NCBI RefSeq assembly: GCF_040436345.1
Contig: NC_133232.1
Location: 9,280,001 to 9,344,000, forward strand
From: Pagrus major
Lineage: Eukaryota > Chordata > Actinopteri > Spariformes > Sparidae
Reading direction: 5' to 3'
Length of the DNA: 64,000 bases
Every line of letters starts with the position of its first letter. Position 1 is the first letter of the stretch. Both the position numbers and the translations under genes were made by a program. This document shows, one piece after another, positions 22,681-63,500 of the stretch. Under the pieces are notes generated by a model. It was not told the DNA's origin. It did not search any database and saw nothing but the letters and a program-made list of their open reading frames with translations.

Positions 22681-22939
22681 ACCACAGGGCTGAGTCTGAG
22701 TCCCAGATTGTCAAATACCAACACTTTGGGTTCACGTCTCGGGTCCGACACCAACGAAGAGCGTCAGTATTTGATGAGCTGAACAATCAACTATCTTTGT
22801 TCAGAATCTTACGCAGTGTTGCTTTAAATTCAGTTTAATTGAGGTACCAACATAAAACAATATGGAAGCCTATTTCTGCCAGTTAAAGAAAAAAAAAGAT
22901 GAAAACTTACTTATGATAGAAAAAATAGTAATCCCAGTG

Positions 22940-23085
22940 TACATCATAATTATGAAAAAAGTCTAAATGATGAGAAGAATTGCGATTTTTTTAAAATCTC
23001 ATAATTATGCCATTTTATTTCATAAATATGACTTTTTAAATCTCATAATTACGACTTCTTTGTCACTTAATTATGACTTACCATG
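22940..23085. repeat. degenerate array of 'ctcataattatgactttt'
   Basis: Several imperfect units built on ATAATTATGA and 'aaatctcataatta' follow one another. The build (short palindromic AT-rich unit with 'ctca') is like that of the 21-bp arrays at 52507-52960 and 54477-54754, but the sequence differs. Confidence 0.55.
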
Positions 23086-23479
23086 GGAAATTAATCTTCG
23101 TTAAATGTCGATTTTTATCTCAGGTTTTTTCTCTAAATGGGCTTCTATTAAAAACTAGATATACTCTATAGCTTGAACAATTCCAGTTTTGGCGCCCCCC
23201 AGTGACGGTATCAATAAAGAAACTGAGATTGATCATAATAATTATAATTTGAAAGACTGCTGTTTTGCTTTACTTCCTGTAAAGGAATATAATTTATTGT
23301 TTAAACTCTCCTATATCACTTTGACAGTGTATTAGTAGGTGGTAAGTAGTAGGCCTACATCACTTTATCAATAAAGTTAATTTATTCCTGATCATTTTCA
23401 AGTGACTGACAGTAGTTTTATAGTTTTTGCTTTGGTCACCCTCCAGAATGTTCCTTTAACGCTCTTGTGTTTGGAGCTG

Positions 23480-36478: not shown

Positions 36479-38228
36479 CCCCCACACTTTTCACAGATGG
36501 AAAAATACTAGGTAATTTAGAAAGATTATTTTGGCAGAACTTTTCTTCTCCCACCAGTTCTCAAGTAATAAACACAAGAGAAAAAAACTATTTAGATAAG
36601 ACTTAGAAAATCACATTTCTTCACTTGCCCCTCAGGGCTTCCATAAGTAATATTTACATGTGCTATTAATGACATAACATAGCCGAAAAAGTACCCTCCC
36701 TCATTTCATTTTAGCATCCAGCACTACTCCCGTATCCAAAAATTTCCTTGGTAATGTTTTGAAAGTCAACACAGTTCAAAGTTGACTTTGGAAACATCAA
36801 CACTGAGAGGAAATGTGAGGACGTGGGAAGTGCTACATTGACTCTGTAAATTAAAATACAGCCAAAACAGATCCATCACACACCCACGTGTACATAGTAA
36901 ATTTAGATTTTTGATAAGTCCTCTTCATGAACATACTGAACACTGATCTGCTCTCAACTTCTTCTGAATCTGTTCCCAAGGCCTCAAATGTCTCGTTTTG
37001 TCCACAACCCAAAGATATTCAGTTTACTGCCATAGAGGATGAAAGAAACCAGAAAATATTCACATTGGAAGCTGGAATCAGAAAATGTTGACTACTACCT
37101 ACTCAAATCAATCAATGGATTATCAAAATAATTTGCAACTAATTTATTAGTTGACGGCTCAGTGCTTTCAAACTAAAAGCTGACCTTCCCTGGAAGCCTT
37201 TCAGACACCTTTGGATAAACTCTGACACGCTTGCCGTCCCTTTAATAACATTTCTTTCCTCCTGAATAGTTGACACGTTGTAGATTCTCATTTTTCACCC
37301 GTCTGTTTCTCCAGTTTTGGACCATTTACTCAAACGAATAAACCAAAGTAAAACCATATGTCTGTTCTGGTTTAACCTCATCTCACACAGCACAAATGGT
37401 GGTTAATTAAGTAAATACTGAGTTTGAAGAGTGAGGTCCAGCAGATGCATTGGTCCAACTGGTTCTAGTTCCAAACCACAGCAGCATCAGACACAGTGTT
37501 GCTGCAGCTTCCAGCATCTCTCAGCTCAGGAAATGTTTAGCAAAGGGTTTGTGTTTGGAGAGAGTTCCTGCAGCTCCACCCTGACACGGCTGTTTGCAGA
37601 GTTCCACCACGCAAACAAAAAATTAAACCAGAGATAATTCTGTTGAATATTTGTTATATCACTCAGGTGTAAAGCAGGAAGGTATCAAAACAAGAACAGC
37701 TTTAAACACACCTGTACATCATGCTGAATATTATAAACAAAGGCTTAGTGACTGTATTTATCTGACAGAGCAGGAGGATGATGAGAGCCGCTTGTTTTAA
37801 CTACTTCCTGTGTTTAACAGAAGGTGTGGGCTGACTGCACTACATCCTGTGTGAAGCTGCTGGCACAGAACATATGACAAACGAGTGTGAAGAAAAACAG
37901 CTCAGATAATAAGACAGTGAACTACACCACTGAGTACAAAGAAGGAAATGAAACTGAGCTGCTAATTATCTATACTGCAACTTATCAAGTAACAATCTTT
38001 TGCATAAACAGTATGTGGGTGTGGACGGAGTAAAAGAAACATCCTGATACCAAAATGCAAAACAGCAGTCTTAAAAATACCAATTCGACCTACATGCCCT
38101 ACAAACCAAGGTGATATTCATATTGGCAGATGTTCAATGTACAGTACTATAAAGGAGAGAAAAGCAGAAATTACATTCCAGATGTTAGAACTAGAGAGTA
38201 TTTGACATTTTTCGTTGATTAGTTATTT

Positions 38229-50255: not shown

Positions 50256-53200
50256 TTATCTGCCGTCACAAACCATCTGGGAGATCAGGTCTCGAGCGTC
50301 TTGAACACCTGAGCTGAGCTCTGCCTCTCCGTTCCTCACATATGTGCCAATGAGGAACAACTTGCGGTCTCCGACCTCAGACAGGGACAGACCGTCGTGG
50401 AGGTCAGTGATGCTGCAGGCTCCTGGAAGGTCCTGGAAACATGAGACAAACAAGAGGAAACATCAGGGATAATAGATCTCAAAGATGATCCCCTTACTTT
50501 ATAACAAAAATACATCAGAGGATACTCTGTTAGTTAAGCATCCTCTTGTCTTTTCTTTCAGACTATAGCTCCAAGGAATTTTAGGCATTCCCACACACCA
50601 AAATCCAAGGAGATAAAAGACAGAATCACTTCAATGTTAAATGTAATTCATGTTAAAAATCGCCAGCTATAAGATCTGATGGACAAAAACTTATGTTTTG
50701 ATCAAATCATTTCCCACTGACACAGTTAAAGCTCAAAGGGTGTGCATGTTTTCTTACTAAATATTCGGTTTATTTGGATAAGTAACATCATTTCCAATTT
50801 CCTGATGACATTAGAGAAATAAAACACATAGACCACAGACAAGAATCTCAAACATTTTGTTTTAGAACAGTCTGTTCAAAAATGCAAGTCTTAGCTTTTA
50901 AAATACCCTTTCACTCTCCTGTGAATTCTTGTGTGCAATGTGACTCTTTATCCATTTCCAATCTGAACAACTATTTTGATAACCGATTTAAGAAAAAAAT
51001 TGATGAAAACGTTCTGGCTACATCTTCTGTTCTGGCACCAAATGTGATTACATGCTTGCTTTCTTCATCTTTTAAAATAACAAACTGAAGATATTTGGGT
51101 TATAGAGTTTTAATGAGACAAAAACTTAATGAGATTTTAAGAAAGTGTGATGGGCACTTAATCATTTAATCAAGAAACATTCTATATATTAATCAATAAT
51201 AAAATCATTAGTTGCAGCCAATCCCAACATAGACTGACAGTGCGAGGTTCTTTAAGGACAACAGGCCTACAGGCTTTTGTTGGAAACAATCTGGAGTGAT
51301 TTTTCTGTCACACTCACCTGTTTGTTGGCCAGGACCATTAAAGGCAGGCGGGGGTCAGAGACCAGCAGCTCGTGTAAATGTTTCTTAGCAACGGGGAAAA
51401 GCTGTGGGTTGGAGGAGTCGACCACAAACACCAGCAGAAGAGCCTTGGACATGTACTTCTGCCAGTACGGCCGCAGCTCCTCTTTACCTCCAACTGACAC
51501 AGACAGACAGACAGATGACTATGACACCAACTCATTGACTTTTGTTTCCTTCAGATGTGAATAAGAGGTCAGACTCACTTTCTAGGAACTCAATGTGCAG
51601 GTCCTCTCTGCTGATGGAGACGGCGTTGAAGCCCTGTGTCGGCTGCATGTCATCCTCCTGGCTGCCAGTGGCCAAACAGTGAAGCAGGCTGGTCTTACCG
51701 GCTCCATCCAGACCCAGAACCAGAACCTGGGTCCCAGCTGACTGTACAGGCCGGGACTGCAGCACACACAGAACAATGCACATCAGATTAGCCTTTAGAT
51801 ACTATCTTTTATCTATTGGGCAAAAGAAGCCTAATTTTAAAAATGAAAACAGTTAATTTTGACAAAATGCAGTCGAATACACACTTGTAAACTAAAACAT
51901 AGTCTAAAATGTCAAAATTACTATTACGTCATTGAAACAGCAACAGTTTTGACAATTGACTTTTTTAAAGCTCCAGTGTGTAGGATCTAGTGGCATCTAG
52001 TGGTGTGGTTACAGACGGCAACCAATGAAATATCGCTCGCCTCAGCCTCCCATGCAGTGGCTGCTAAAAACGCAAAACATGCGAGAGGCTGTCACTAGAG
52101 CGAGCGGTTGGTTTGTCCGTGCTGGGCTACTGTAGAAACATGACTCTGTGGAAGATCAAGCCCTTTAAATCTACTTCTGTGGACATAAAAGGCCCAAACA
52201 ACTAAAAAACGCAACGATTCTTAATTTCAGGTGATTATACACTAATTAAAACATAATTTTGAATATCATATCCATTTCTGCCTCTGAATTCTACACACTG
52301 GACCTTTAAATCAATGATAAAGCAAAAATGGCCTCATCTTCTCAAACGTGATATAATAAATGTACCTTATTTCAGTGTCTTGTTGAATGTAACGTCTTAC
52401 TACTATTTATGTTGTCATGATGCCTATGTCCTTTGTTTTTGTATTGCTACCGTATCATTGATGTATGAAAGACCATTTCCACCAGTGTGATGAAAAAAAA
52501 GATCCTGTAAGTCATTATAATGAGATAGTATCTCAATATATTGACATAGTATCTCAAAATAATGAGATAGTATCTCAAAATACTGACTTAGTATCTCAAA
52601 ATATTGACTTAGTATCTCAATATATTGACTTAGTATCTCAAAATAATGAGATAGTATCTCAAAATACTGACTTAGTATCTCAAAATATTGACTTAGTATC
52701 TCAATATATTGACTTAGTATCTCAAAATAATGACTTAGTATCTCAATATATTGACATGGTATCTCAAAATATTGACTTAGTATCTCAAAATAATGACTTA
52801 GTATCTCAATATATTGACATGGTATCTCAAAATATTGACTTAGTATCTCGAAATAATGAGGTTGTAGTATCTCGAAATAATGAGATACTATCTCATTATT
52901 TTTTCAATATTGACTTGGTATCTCGAAATAATGAGGTAGTATCTCAAAATAATGACTTAGGCCTATGTCTTGTGCCTCATATGCGCCAAAGCAACAGAAG
53001 CAAGTGGGTGAGACAAGGCAAGAAAAATGATGTGGCTAGAAGCATACAAGACCAACAGTGACCAACAGTGACACTATTATCGCAGGTTATTTTATAGATG
53101 CTGTGACCGAAAACAATGGATGTCCACAAAAAGTCAGGTTAAATCTCCGTACTGAGAATACACACGTTGCAGTGATGCAAAAGTTTCTGCACAACAGTGA

Positions 53201-55847
53201 GGATGAGAATGGTACGGAGTATGTCACTTTAGGTCCAAGTACTGGCAATCAAAGGCTTGAATGTTGGTGGTGCACCTTGAGAAGTGAATGCGTCCAGTTT
53301 TGGATGGATCACTTCGACCAGCTGAAAGCAGATGGCTATTTTGTTGACAGCTTCATTGACAAATCACTGATCCAAGTTTGCTTCCAAAATACTATACAGG
53401 TATAGTATCCTCAAAATATTGTTTATCAACACAAATGTAACTATGAGATATAACGGCATAAACACGGATTATTTTCACACAACCGTTTCACTCCTTTTCT
53501 ATAGGAGGAGCTTGATGAAGTTGAACTGTCTGGAATGATCATCGCATAAGAACAACCAACAATCCTCGGGCTCCAAATGCCCGCCCTTCAATAATCTATG
53601 CAGGTCCCAATCTTTATGGGTCTCAGAATTTCTTGCAGCCAGCTGATCAAATGAAGATAGAAATAGGTCGAGAGGACTGTGTTTTTAAGGACTATCCTTG
53701 TGATGAGGATGTGTTTCACTTATGTATGGAATTTATGGCTGAGCACAACCTTGCCATGTCTGACGATGTGTATGAAATTACTGAACTTTATCTAAGACTT
53801 TGTCAAATGATTATTAATGGGTTGGGGGAATAGAGAAAAAGCTTCAGCTAAATAGGCCTACCATTGTATATAAATATGCCCTTAATTGTTTATTGTACAT
53901 GCCATCTGAAATACAGGCACACAGGGTGGATACATTAGTGACACTGTCTTTAAATTATAGGTTGATGTTTTTGTAGCTCCATTTTGCCTTAACAACAAAG
54001 GTATAAAAGAGCAGCACATGTAGATAATAATTTTTACATTTTAATTTTGAGCAAGCTCACACGCAGGTGTTGCATCTCTTTGAGTGTCATTCTAGTCATT
54101 ATTAGTTACTCTTACAGTAACTGTTATTATGCTGATAAAGCCATTTTGTAATATAGACTGGCGAGTGAGATGCAATAAAACATAACACACGGAGAAGAAA
54201 AAAAAGTGTCTTAAATTTTTCCAAACCTGATTTTGAAATTCTTACAATGCTGGTTGTTAAGAACAAATATCTAGTAAAGTCGGCAAAGGTGGATGCTGTC
54301 ACTTGTTACATTTAATGAATTTTTAGTAGTGAGAAGATGTCCATATCAGTCAAAGGACTGGTTTCAGTGCTCCTAAAATGAAACAAAATAATTAAAATCA
54401 AAGTACATCAGCGATTCCATTCTCATTCTTAATTGATAGTCTGATATTTTTGGATATATATATTATTTTATATAATACTATCTCATTATTTTGAAATACT
54501 AAGTCAATATTTTGAGATACTTTCTCAATATTTTGAGATACTATCTCATTATTTTGAGACACTAAGTCAATATTTTGAGATACTATCTCATTATTTTGAG
54601 ATACTAAGTCAATATATTGAGATACTTTCTCAATATTTTGAGATACTAAGTCAATATATTGAGATACTATCTCATTATTTTGAGATACTAAGTCAATATA
54701 TTGAGATACTATCTCATTATTTTGAGATACTAAGTCATTATAATGACTTACAGGATCTTTTTTTTCATCACACTGGCGGAAATGGGCTTCCATATTGATG
54801 AATGATAAATAAAGCTTTGGGAAAAAAAAAACCTTCTCAAACATGATAATTCACATTGACATTCAAAGACACTACCTTGGACTCGACTGTATTGAACTGT
54901 AATGGGCATTTCTTACTATTTTGATTCATCTGATACATCATACAATTAACTATTCATCAAGAAAATTATGTGCAGAATAATCAGAAATGAAAATGGTCAG
55001 TATTGTACTGTATTGTATTGTAGTTAGTGATAAATCAGCATTTATTTTTATTAAATGGTGGAAAAATCAATGTCCATCACAGTTTTCCACAGCCCAAGAG
55101 ATGCCTCCAATTTCCTTATTGTAAATACTACATTTTCACGTCATAGTAAAACATCAAATTTGCACACTTGAGAGCCTGGATATCGTGTAATCTGGCATTT
55201 TCGCTTACTGCGCACTTAAAGGTTTCACTAAACCTATTCCTAAATAGTATGGTCTAGACCTGCTCTAAATAAAACTGGCATGACAGTTAGTTTGACCTCC
55301 AATCTATTTCAGTCAGTAAGCTCCTACATTTCCCAGCATGCCCCCACAGGAACCTCCAGAGAATTTGCTTCGACTTGTTGCTGTTTTAACCATACAAATA
55401 AAAGCATTTAGATGCTTGTAGTAATACTCTATAAACTCTTGATGATGTTTAGAATTAAATACAAACTTAAAACATAAAATATGTTCTGTAGAAGCTCTTT
55501 AATCTGGTCTAAAGTTAGAAATGTGTTTCTTCTTCTATGGTTCTTTTAGATGTACACACTCCACCACGGTTCCCATGAAGGTGTGTCGGGTAAACTTAAT
55601 GTTTTACCTCTGGTGCTTTCTGAGCTTCAGCAGCTACAACTGGCGCAGCAGCGACCACGACTGCTTGTTCAGCTGCCTCTCTTCTCTCCTCTTTCTTCCC
55701 CTCTCTCGCACTTGTGCCGTCTTGATTCGGCGGTGTTCCACGCTTCTTCTCCCCGAAGGAGGACGCGTAGTTCCAGATAAGATAGGCGACTCCCCCCGCC
55801 AGAGCGACGGAGGCGCCGAGGACACCGGCTTCTCTCAGACCAAACAT
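50256..55847 (-). CDS. arl9: ARL9, ADP-ribosylation factor-like GTPase with N-terminal membrane segment
   Basis: A small ARF-family GTPase. Four coding exons: 55608-55847 (80 codons, ATG 55847-55845), 51579-51756, 51318-51493 and 50256-50432. Donors and acceptors are all GT-AG and the phases agree, giving 256 residues. Residues 8-27 form a hydrophobic segment (about GVLGASVALAGGVAYLIWNY), followed by a Lys/Glu-rich and Ala/Val-rich linker to about 85. The GTPase domain follows: P-loop GLDGAGKTS (about 95-103), threonine/GFN switch I (about 121-125), IGG of switch II (about 140-142) and NKQD (about 196-199). Switch II reads IGGKEEL, so the catalytic Gln of typical ARFs is absent, as in human ARL9. 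The N-terminal exon recalls the membrane anchor of ARL10. The adjacency to thegl and srp72 matches human 4q12. Confidence 0.88.
51965..52309. mobile_element. TTAA-flanked MITE
   Basis: TTAA at 51965-51968 is followed by AGCTCCAGTGTGTAGGATC; the right end reads 'ctacacactggacct' followed by TTAA at 52306-52309. The ends are inverted copies (AGNTCCAGTGTGTAG). TTAA duplication suggests piggyBac- or Kolobok-type mobilisation. No transposase. Confidence 0.75.
52507..52960 (+). repeat. 21-bp tandem array, left arm
   Basis: About 19 units of 'ttagtatctcaaaataatga' type, alternating mainly between 'aaaataatgagatag', 'aatatattgacttag' and 'aaaatattgacttag'. TGAGATAGTATCTCA, a perfect 7+1+7 inverted repeat, occurs where two units meet. 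The array keeps a frame open, which has no coding meaning. Confidence 0.9.
53058..53833 (+). pseudogene. integrase core (rva_4-like) transposase, C-terminal half, broken
   Basis: An open frame from 53058 carries the order typical of the integrase-core proteins found widely in fish, cnidarian and sponge genomes: GCPQKVRL, RTENTHVAVMQKFLH, GPSTGNQRLECWW, FDQLKADGYF and VCFQNTIQ. The exon ends at 53399 (donor GTATAG) and continues at 53505 after TTTCTATAG, giving EELDEVEL. One frame change then occurs near 53530, after which DHRIRTTNNPR and a YAGPNLYG block run on to the stop at 53833. The residue expected to be the second catalytic Asp, before RTEN, is Asn; the final acidic residue in NQRLE is kept. 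The N-terminal half is absent. Dead copy; spliced polyA at about 54174-54179 (AATAAA). Confidence 0.6.
53400..53504 (+). other. intron of the integrase-like gene
   Basis: 105-bp GT-AG intron inferred because CAG/GTATAG and TTTCTATAG/GAG border the two halves of a continuous family motif (FQNTIQ then EELDEV). Confidence 0.6.
54477..54754 (-). repeat. 21-bp tandem array, right arm
   Basis: About 13 units of the same family as the left arm but in the opposite direction ('gagatactaagtcaatattt'). Ends at 'aatgacttacaggatc', the inverse of the left start. Confidence 0.9.
54801..55607. other. arl9 intron 1, right part
   Basis: Ordinary AT-rich intronic DNA without repeat or exon signal. It ends at the GTAAAAC donor of arl9 exon 1. 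Confidence 0.45.
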
Positions 55848-56060
55848 GGCGCTCAACCGCCGGTTCTGTTTTTCAAACTGCCGCTTCTTTTATCCGTCCG
55901 TTTCCACCATTGCTCGACTTTTTTGATGAAGATTTTCCAACCTCTTCGTCCTCCTCCTCTTCTCATCAACAAGTGGATTAGCTGACAGGAAGCTCAGGAG
56001 GAACTTCTACAAACGATATTTCCGGGCTGCTTTCTGTTGATGCAGTGCTACAGTCTCACC
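55848..56060 (-). promoter_or_regulatory. candidate arl9 promoter region
   Basis: CpG-bearing stretch directly upstream of the arl9 ATG, with an ETS-type TTCCGG at about 56019-56024 (CCGGAA on the coding strand). No TATA box is seen. The start of transcription is not determinable here. Confidence 0.35.
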
Positions 56061-57087: not shown

Positions 57088-58170
57088 CTATGCGGGTTTG
57101 AGAGGTGCGACCTGGTTCATCCTCTTTATTAGTAACCTCTGTCTCTGCTCAGGAGCACTCAGGAGCCAGGATTGGAGCGTGCTCTCCTCCTTCATCCTCC
57201 CCAGACTCTCCCAGGTCCGAGCCCGCAGTGAGGGAGGCCTCTTCTTCTGCAGTGCTGCCTCTTGGACCTGCTCCGGCCCCGAGCTGGACGACTCCACCAC
57301 CTGGGCCTGCCGGTGCCTCCTGGACTTGGACGCCTCCTGGCAGCTTCCATAGCTCTTCTGCTTGATGGAGGCCAGGAGCCGGGCCCTGCTGCTGGACTCT
57401 TTCTCAGCTCGATCCTCCTCATCATCTTCATCACTGGAGTTCCTGTCTTTGTTCTCCTGTGAGAAAATCTTCTGCTGCCAGGTGATGAACTCTGACATGC
57501 ACTTCTCCAAGCTGGTGGTTAAGTCTCGACGGATCATGGTGACCTCGGAGCCAACCTCCACCGTGGCCTCCTTCATCTTCTCGTAGCAGCTCTGGATGTT
57601 ACTCACCTCCTCCAGGACGTCTGCAGTCATGAGCTCTTGGATGGCTGTGGTCCTCCCAAGAAACTCAGCACACACAGGCTCTCTCTTTGGTTTCCTCTGC
57701 TTCTGGAAGGTGAGGAAATGTGGCATGGCGGTGTAGTGTATGGCTTTGTTTGTGACAAGCTTCTGATATACGTAAACAACATCCTGATGTCCAGCATCCA
57801 CAGAGTCTTTGAGAAACTTCTGAACCTGATCCCAGTCCCTCAGAGCGAGTCTGATATTCACAGGTGGAACAGCAGGTTGTATGTGGTAAAAACCAAACAT
57901 CAGATACAAGCCGCCTACTCTGATCTGGTAGCTGTATGGAGGCAGGAAGTACTTTACAGCTGTGGCCAATGCTATTCTGAGGAATCTCTTCATTTCAGCC
58001 ACATGGATGATTCCTAAAAACACATCCGAGAGGCCCATCTCCCTCCAAATGGCTGAAAACTGCTCATACCTGACTGAGTCAGTCTGCTGGAAACGAGCCA
58101 GTAGTTCCTCCACATCTTCAGTCAGAGGACTGTAGAAGAATTCAGAGTAAACAGGCGGCACACGAGGCAT
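57088..58170 (-). CDS. snapc1: SNAPC1-type snRNA-activating complex subunit, intronless
   Basis: SNAPC1 (SNAP43) is part of the SNAPc complex that binds the proximal sequence element of snRNA genes for RNA polymerases II and III. The open frame runs from ATG 58170-58168 to the stop at 57088 and encodes 360 residues, near the ~368 I recall for human. The N-terminal half shows the family pattern: LLARFQQTDSVRYEQF (about 23-38), FLPPYSYQIRVGGLYL, RDWDQVQKFLKD, and IHYTAMPHFL. A middle helical section (about 180-235) is followed by an acidic stretch EDDEEDRAEKE and the basic SKSRRHRQAQV motif also seen in human. There is no intron anywhere, while mammalian SNAPC1 has many, so a retroposed or intron-lost copy is likely. 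Which fish paralogue it is cannot be told. Confidence 0.88.
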   Translation of the reverse strand: MPRVPPVYSEFFYSPLTEDVEELLARFQQTDSVRYEQFSAIWREMGLSDVFLGIIHVAEMKRFLRIALATAVKYFLPPYSYQIRVGGLYLMFGFYHIQPAVPPVNIRLALRDWDQVQKFLKDSVDAGHQDVVYVYQKLVTNKAIHYTAMPHFLTFQKQRKPKREPVCAEFLGRTTAIQELMTADVLEEVSNIQSCYEKMKEATVEVGSEVTMIRRDLTTSLEKCMSEFITWQQKIFSQENKDRNSSDEDDEEDRAEKESSSRARLLASIKQKSYGSCQEASKSRRHRQAQVVESSSSGPEQVQEAALQKKRPPSLRARTWESLGRMKEESTLQSWLLSAPEQRQRLLIKRMNQVAPLKPA

Positions 58171-58264
58171 CTCCTCTACGAAATAAACACCTCAGATAAC
58201 AGTCAAAGTGTTTGTCAGTCGTCTGAAGGAGCTTTGAACGCGTTCAAGGCAGGTGAGGCTCGTC

Positions 58265-60527: not shown

Positions 60528-63500
60528 CTACCAGCCTCCTTTGCCTCCTTTCTTCTTCTTCTGTGGTGCCTTCTTGCGCGTGGCCCCCGAGGCTGCAGGT
60601 TTCTGCTGTCGAGGCGGGACCACGTTGCTGGCTGGAGCTGTAGATGAGCCGGAGGCAGACCCTGGTCTAGGGGAGGTAGGGGGGCTGCTGGCCGTCTTAC
60701 TGGCATCACTGGAACAGAGGAAGAGCCAAAAATCAGACATGAGAGATCAATCTCAAGGAAATGACTCTTTTACTGTAACTTTTAAAACAAGTTGAAATGC
60801 GATGTTTGGAAAACCTTGTACCATCTGTGCCCTGCAAGTGGTTAAAAGGAATTAGGGCTGCAACTAACGATTGCATTAATTGTTGACTAATCTGTTGATT
60901 ATTTTCTCGATTAATTGCTTAGTTGTTTGGTCCATAAAATGTCAGAAAATGGTGAAAAATGTGCATCAGTGTTTCCCAAAGCACAAGAGGACGTCCTCTA
61001 ACGTCTTGTTTTGTCCACAACCCAAAGATATTCAGGTTACTGTTATAGAAGAGGAGAGAAACCAGAAAATATTCACATTTAAGAAGCTGGAATCAGAATG
61101 TTGACTTTTTTCGTTTTCAGAAATGACTCAAAATGATTAATTGATTAGCAAAATACTTGGCCAATAATTTAATAGTTTACAACTCAGTAAATAACAATTG
61201 CAGCTCTAAAAGGAATAGTTTGAAATTTTTGGAAATATGTTTATCTGTTTTCTTGAAGAGATTTAGATGAGAGAGCCAATTCCCCTTTAGCTTCAGCCCC
61301 AAACATGAGGTTGGTATTGATCCTATTATCCAACTCAGAGCAAAAAAGCTAATTTCTCAAATTAACAACTAAGGCTAATTTTTTAAATATTTGTCCCTCA
61401 ATATTAATACTGCAACTCAAAAAACATCAATTTATGGGGGAAAATACTGTTTGTTTTGCATATACATATATTTCCTTGTGATCTTTCTAAATTTCTAGCA
61501 AAAGTTATGATGAAGAGTCATCTGCAGCTAAGGTATGTTATATCAAAATGATAGAATCATCATTAAAAGCTAGGGGTGTCATGATTTTTCCAGCACATAT
61601 GGCTACGTAATTGTTATATGATCACATCTGGATTTGTAAAGATCTGATCAGATCATTGGTTGTATGCCCTATGCCCATCATTTACAAATACTTCATTAAA
61701 AAGAGAAGGGTATTTTACAACAACAGCTTGACTTTATCTTGGTGGCTTTTTGCAATTTAGGGTTAGACAAGTTAACAAAAAAAGATTCCAGAGGTCAACA
61801 AAGATACCATCCTTCAGTGATCCAACAATAAAAGATAGAGGGTCAGTTTCTTAAATCTGTCCCAAGTAAACCCCCTTCTTTAAATAAAGGATCTCCGAAA
61901 AAGAAAATAAACCAAACATCTCTGTGCAACCCCTCATATAGGCAGGCCTCACTTTCCCAAATGTAGAAGCATTTCTGATAGTCCTAACATGTGGGTTTAA
62001 ACTTTGGCTGAGACTGAGTGTATTTTTTATTTTGGCCTAAATAACACAGAAGCTGTTTCTCCTGCACAGCAGCTGGACAGCTCCACTGAGGATTCACTGG
62101 CAGGGAAACAAAAGGACAATCTCAGGGTGCTTTTTCCTCCATTAGTGGTGAAAATTACTACGGTTCAATTACAGGAAATTGCACCCAGACAGCTCTACTC
62201 GCAGGTGACGTGCATATGTGAGTCTGGAGTTTACTCACAGCTCAGCTGAAGCTCCTGCTGTTGCTCCCTGTGTGCCTTTTCCGATCTGCTCCTTCTTCTT
62301 GCCCTTCTTCTTGCCTCTGTAGTAAGAACGCTCCCTCATGGGCAGCCACCTCTCAGGGTCAGGCGTCGCTTTGGGGTCGCAGTTTTTGGGCAGTTTGCCT
62401 GAAAAGATGATCAGAAGGAAACATGAAAAGTAGCACTCAGCTTAGCATAGCTTAAGTAAAGATATGAGGTGAATCCGTGGTCAGAAGTTCAGTATCTACA
62501 GTGCCTATAAAAAATATTCACCCCCTTGGTTGTTTTCCCCTTTTATTACTTTTAGAAATTGAATCATGGTCAATATAATTTGTTTTCTTGACAAGAATTC
62601 AAGTGAAAACAGATTTCTACAAAGTAATGTCAATTAATTAAAAAATATATAATGTAAAATAATTGATTGATTGCATAAGTATTCACTCCCTTCTAGTCAG
62701 TATTTAGTAGATGCATCTCTGGTCGCAATCACAGCACTGAGGCTGTGTGGACAGGTCTCAATCAGGCTTGCACATCTGGACACTGCTATTTTACTCCATT
62801 CTTTGCAAAACTGCTGAAGCTCTGTCAGGTTGCACGGGGATCGGACATGAACAGTCCTTTTCAAGTCCAGCCACAAATTCTGTATTGGATCGAGGTCTGG
62901 GCTTTGACCCGGCCACTCCAGAACATCCACCTTGTTGTCTTTAAACCATTTATGTGTAGCTCTCGCTGTTTGCTTCGGGTCCCTGTCTTGCTGGAAAAGA
63001 CACTTCTCCCAAGTTGTAGTTCTCTTGCAGACTGAATCAGGTTGTCCTCCAGGATTTCCCTATATTTTGGTGCATTCATTTTACCCTCTACCTTAACAAG
63101 CCTTCCAGGGCCTTCTGCCGAGAAGCATCCCCACAGCATGATGCTGCCACCACCATGCTTCACAGTGGGGATGGTGTGTTTGTGGTGATGTGCAGTGTTT
63201 GGTGTCCACCAAACATAGCGTCTAGTCTGATGGCCAAAAAGCCTTTGCCAGTTGACCTTGAAGTCTCCCACAGGCTTTTGGGTGAACTCTAGTTGAGATT
63301 TAATGCGCTTTCTTCAACAGTGGCTTTCTCTTTGCCACGCTCCCATGAAGCTTTGACTGGTGAAGAACCCGGGCAACAGTTGTTGTATGCAGAGTCTCTC
63401 CCAGCTCAGCTGCTGAAAGCTTTAAATCACTCGCAATCACTTATTTTACATTATATATTTCAATTAATTGACATTACTTTGTAGAAATCTGTTTTTACTT

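Follow-up and report, generated by a model that had tools for sequence, protein, structure and literature searches.

A decayed DNA transposon, most likely an IS3EU/GingerRoot element, with facing and phase-locked 21-bp repeat arrays in Pagrus major

The locus described here, found in a stretch of 64,000 nucleotides of Pagrus major DNA (hereafter the window), consists of two inverted ends, two tandem arrays of 21-bp units that face each other and an integrase-like coding remnant between them, raising the question of whether these parts belong to one mobile element, to which superfamily such an element would belong and what its arrays are for. The locus is placed between the exons of an Arf-family GTPase and the SNAPC1 gene (Table 1). 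An open frame at 55596-55889, which we take to resemble ARL10 and to be a possible first exon of an Arf-like gene, was without a Pfam match; if it is that exon, the element may lie within an intron of the gene. Near the two edges of the window, the frames at 528-845 and 62697-63313 presumably represent remnants of Tc1/mariner transposases, and Pfam searches with frames 528-845 and 62861-63313 gave no match at 0.001.

The element was found to measure 2,331 bp (52464-54794), or to span 52458-54800 together with its target-site duplication (TSD), meaning that the range given for it in a preliminary description of this DNA, 52455..54800, was correct to a few bases. That description had also reported outer ends of about 51 bases, nearly identical and inverted, which agrees with the 48 of 51 positions that match between the ends; when 70 bases of each end were compared, mismatches fell at positions 5, 9, 18, 61 and 62. 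The search for a TSD that it had recommended yielded the hexamer TTGATG directly outside both ends. Of 31 symmetric offsets of the boundary that were tried, a 6-bp match was obtained at offset 0 only, the probability of such a match by chance at a fixed boundary being 0.0004. At the boundary fixed by the TSD, the ends read TATG... and ...CATA, that is, the element has TA...TA termini.

Table 1. Features of the element and its surroundings, in positions of the window.
Feature	Position	Strand	Remark
Arf-family GTPase exons	51267-51518, 51532-51801	-	Pfam PF00025
Left TSD copy, TTGATG, 6 bp	52458-52463	.	Identical to 54795-54800
Left terminal inverted repeat, 60 bp, begins TATGA	52464-52523	+	57/60 identical to right end
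Left 21-bp array, 20 units and one dyad within the inverted repeat	52512-52960	+	Inner units irregular
Exon A, integrase core PF24764, profile 50-152 of 194	53040-53399	+	Homology from near 53076
Putative intron, GT...AG, 105 bp, phase 0	53400-53504	+	Read-through raises the Pfam score
Exon B, frameshift near 53529	53505-53833	+	C-terminal frame 53525-53833 ends at a stop; frames picked by eye
Right 21-bp array, 12 units and one dyad within the inverted repeat	54475-54746	-	Without indels
Right terminal inverted repeat, 60 bp, ends CCATA	54735-54794	-	Paired with left end
Right TSD copy, TTGATG	54795-54800	.	Perfect 6-bp match to left copy
SNAPC1 gene	57088-58191	-	Pfam PF09808
Short diverged relative, no gene	22861-23149	+	Terminal motif and internal repeats

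The integrase-like coding remnant that had been noticed between the arrays was recovered by Pfam above the curated cut-off. Exon A alone matched PF24764 (rva_4) with an E-value of 1.1e-7 and about 31.6-32.3 bits (cut-off 26), and exons A and B, read through the putative intron, reached 54.6 bits with an E-value of 1.5e-14 over profile positions 50-173 of 194, in a translation that carries an X at the frameshift near 53529 and for which the frames of exon B had been chosen by eye beforehand. Exon B by itself was without any Pfam match, and the upstream limit of exon A is that of the open frame only. A single-sequence fold prediction of exon A returned a mean pLDDT of 39 and gives the fold no support. 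No other match above cut-off was found by Pfam on the minus strand of 52962-54470 or on the plus strand of 53834-54470, and a sub-threshold match to DUF2039 in the inner region (E 0.3, 11.8 bits versus a cut-off of 27) was taken as chance.

The N-terminal part of the enzyme, corresponding to the first 49 profile positions of PF24764, is missing from the remnant, and the gap between the left array and the start of homology is only ~115 bp, so that the copy looks internally deleted, as it probably is. The missing positions are those in which we would expect the first catalytic residue. Further downstream, an Asn (53142) located 38 residues ahead of a Glu (53259) presumably stands where the consensus has the second catalytic Asp. 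With the match beginning at profile position 50 and an Asn standing for the second Asp, no complete catalytic triad could be traced, and the present copy could hardly encode an active enzyme. Just ahead of the homology start, at 53050-53069, lies a 10-base tandem duplication, GACCAACAGT, a possible scar of the internal deletion that would suit abortive gap repair.

The preliminary description had matched the element to no named superfamily, a statement that we revise here, as IS3EU/GingerRoot fits it by termini, TSD length and transposase type. Complete IS3EU families are described as always having TA..TA termini and usually 6-bp TSDs; in GingerRoot, which belongs to the same lineage, the TSDs are of 6 bp and most termini are TA..TA (PMC10045372). 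IS3EU elements of rust fungi end in TAYGG..CCRTA and have TSDs of 6 bp (PMC12730594). The element has TA...TA termini, its right end fitting the rust-fungus CCRTA and its left end reading TATGA, not TATGG; it has a 6-bp TSD, found in one copy, the short relative described below reaching 4/6 at best; and it encodes a DDD/E integrase-like transposase insofar as the homology to the integrase core (PF24764) indicates one. Because ends, duplication length and gene type are concordant, we consider the element to be a decayed DNA transposon of the cut-and-paste type that most likely belongs to IS3EU/GingerRoot (probability about 0.82), and we infer from the same concordance that PF24764 would represent the IS3EU transposase. 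A point against this inference is that, in the literature searched, PF24764 was named by a single paper, which judging from its title concerns Micrococcus luteus. IS3EU elements have been annotated in zebrafish, with 17838 copies (PMC4746887), and recorded in killifish (PMC12763893) and cyprinids (PMC9472340), and the family to which the present element belongs may already carry a name.

Turning to the arrays, a 19-base unit pattern (up to 3 mismatches) had 32 matches in the window, all inside 52512-54732, compared to a mean of 0.06 matches in 100 shuffles. The earlier count of about 19 and 13 units was right in that the arrays are real and slightly too low on the left, where 20 units were measured versus 12 on the right (21 and 13 when the dyads within the inverted repeats are included), and their facing orientation was borne out by inverted arms of 320 nt that are 87% complementary. 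All 11 spacings between units of the right array equal 21, as do 17 of the 19 on the left, where the remaining two, 24 and 30, are close to the inner edge. The first regular unit (GTATCT) lies at element position 65 on both sides, placing it at an equal distance from each end. Within the unit, 14 of the 21 columns are conserved in 31 or 32 of the 32 units, with variation mainly in columns 12, 16, 20 and 21, and it is in the constant part that a dyad, TCA-N6-TGA, was found. On either side this dyad recurs at element position 49+21k, starting with a copy within the inverted repeat; on the right all 13 dyads are exact and in this register, and on the left 17 of 21 are exact, 16 of them in register. 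The bare dyad is common: 41 further copies are scattered over the parts of the window that belong to neither element, and one lies in the gene at 53249, so any argument for docking depends on phase and repetition and not on the motif alone.

The units may also hold a record of how the arrays grew. In the left array the mean mismatch between units reached its minimum at lags 4 and 3, in the right at lag 2; identical pairs of units were found on the left at lag 4 (4/16) and lag 3 (3/17) with none at lag 1 (0/19), and on the right at lag 2 (2/10) with none at lag 1 (0/11). This pattern points to growth by block duplication at each end separately, and the arrays probably expanded in blocks of 2-4 units, independently of each other. 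Such multi-unit duplications fit the earlier proposal that copy number varies by array slippage. For part of the left array (52507-52720), strong folding of one DNA strand was predicted (z -6.6), as expected of a quasi-palindromic repeat.

A second copy of this design appears to be present in the window at 22861-23149. Its left end, TATGGAAGCCTATTTCTGCCAG, matches the right end of the element at 20 of 22 bases, and its right end, near 23149, has the minus-strand sequence AATAGAAGCCCATTT. The interior holds five TCATAATTATGA-like repeats (up to 2 substitutions) compared to 0.1 expected from 300 shuffles, for a motif chosen after inspection of this relative, and Tandem Repeats Finder reported periods of 21, 23 and 44. 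Only two exact dyads are present, a number reached by 11 of 1000 shuffles, and no TSD was recognizable (best 4/6). With less than 300 bp there is no room for a transposase gene, and the sequence looks like an old non-autonomous relative, which lends moderate backing to a common plan in which a terminal motif is combined with TCA-N6-TGA repeats. The preliminary description had held that genome copies with these ends and no integrase would refute its reading, and this relative is in part such a copy; the transposon reading still stands, since short non-autonomous derivatives are normal among DNA transposons. Scans of the whole window with the motifs also gave, at 36635-36645 on the minus strand, an isolated stretch of 11 bases that matches the terminus of the element.

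What, then, might the arrays do? The transposase of an intact relative, an integrase-type DDE enzyme, would cleave the DNA at the TA...TA termini and join the element to target cuts with a 6-bp stagger. The two facing arrays would serve in this process as docking ladders offering the transposase many sites, where the dyads of the 21-bp units, being in phase with the dyad of the inverted repeat, would align the bound subunits on one face of the helix, leading to the end. As 21 bp correspond to two turns of B-DNA, successive dyads face the same side. Binding of the transposase to the 21-bp unit is plausible and is helped by the phase-locking of the dyads; to the wider role of the arrays as docking sites, which would be the best mechanism that we can offer, we give about even odds.

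A strong rival, to which we assign a substantial chance that stops short of even, holds that the transposon is real and that its arrays are functionless minisatellite growth, seeded by the single dyad of the inverted repeat. The duplication of 2-4-unit blocks, different at each end, is what slippage or unequal exchange would yield, and the strong DNA fold of the left array may favour slippage. Moreover, the oyster satellites CgiSat35 and CgiSat47 resemble IS3EU elements (PMC8268682), as does half of the beetle satellite TCAST10 (PMC5844308), indicating that IS3EU elements can feed tandem repeats. Against passive growth stand the 21-bp phase, kept across all 12 right units and the first 16 left units, and the similar dyad carried by the diverged short relative; the same start distance of both arrays and their near-invariant core also speak against it, although recent duplication could explain the uniformity too.

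Assignment of the element to another superfamily with an integrase-like transposase, namely Ginger1, Ginger2/TDD or Polinton, appears improbable. Polintons are much larger elements with genes of viral type, including those for DNA polymerase and capsid, whereas the element is 2.3 kb long and its inner region has no Pfam match to viral-type genes, though this copy is probably internally deleted. All three groups are placed with retroviral integrases and Polinton likewise makes 6-bp duplications, but the TSDs of Ginger1 are 4 bp and those of Ginger2 4 or 5 bp (PMC10045372), compared to 6 bp in the element. About as improbable is the idea that the integrase remnant is a separate element inserted between two arrays, with ends and gene unrelated: homology does begin abruptly near 53076, just inside the 10-base duplication, but no second pair of inverted ends (at least 14 bases) flanks the gene inside 52962-54470, where the only inverted repeat of at least 14 bases (16 nt, 81%) has both arms downstream of the gene and direct repeats of at least 14 bases were not found, the outer ends, with the 6-bp duplication beyond them, enclose everything, and end type and gene type indicate one superfamily. 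With a single set of inverted ends and a single 6-bp duplication enclosing the gene, the earlier view of a transposon with its own integrase-type transposase is upheld.

The arrays can also be read as coding sequence, since open frames of 7-codon repeats run through both (52465-53061 on the plus strand, 198 codons; 54793-54398 on the minus strand, 131 codons), each starting at an ATG on base 2 of its end, with a VSQNIDL-like repeat peptide that has I/N and V at coiled-coil spacing, and two array indels (+3 and +9) that preserve the frame. No third-position excess was found in the variation among units, minor letters numbering 28, 23 and 18 at codon positions 1, 2 and 3, and 26 of the 32 unit peptides differ from the consensus, so there is no sign of purifying selection on the peptide. 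Both arrays are open on their opposite strands as well, and openness may simply follow from the unit sequence. We therefore regard as highly improbable that the arrays are double-purpose, docking the transposase while also encoding a coiled-coil protein that begins in the inverted repeat and whose length follows that of the array.

Beyond the window, an 18-base end motif had two matches in viral contigs, with GC contents of 0.64 and 0.62 and without the A-rich stretch that follows the motif in the element, which were taken as chance; a degenerate 20-base end motif had 17 matches in genome contigs, all bacterial by title and none with an array unit or the opposite end, and no match in viral contigs, where a 24-base array pattern also gave none. 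Protein scans for transposase relatives returned 17 pattern stretches in viral contigs and 26 in genome contigs, none of which was confirmed, a PDB sequence search gave one chance match (E 0.66), and an NCBIfam search none. When DNA strings of the element were sought in the literature, only a 12-base string matched, in papers titled on non-transposon subjects.

Compared with known systems, Polinton differs from the element in size and gene content. Ginger1, Ginger2/TDD and Polinton share with it a transposase related to retroviral integrase, the duplications of the Gingers (4 bp, or 4/5 bp) being unlike its 6 bp (PMC10045372). IS3EU/GingerRoot has TA..TA termini, a 6-bp duplication and an integrase-like DDD/E transposase (PMC10045372) in common with the element, which adds phase-locked 21-bp arrays at both ends. 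Within the literature searched, IS3EU was not found together with subterminal repeats; in the sections available, an insertion in the fungal element Styx is flanked by a 32-bp tandem repeat (PMC10853768) and half of TCAST10 resembles IS3EU-1_TC (PMC5844308), neither being a case of arrays at both ends. Through the analysis, a repeat that had seemed unclassifiable receives a likely name and exact boundaries, and a possible source is suggested for some of the 21-bp minisatellite-like arrays that are dispersed in genomes of this kind. If the phase-locked dyads are transposase sites, IS3EU would make a good case in which to study how the length of the terminal arrays tunes transposition. In maize En/Spm, the transposase binds many subterminal repeats, and these many short repeats near both ends offer a possible functional likeness to the element; En/Spm differs in its transposase, duplication length and ends, and the repeats of the element form a strict head-to-tail 21-bp ladder.
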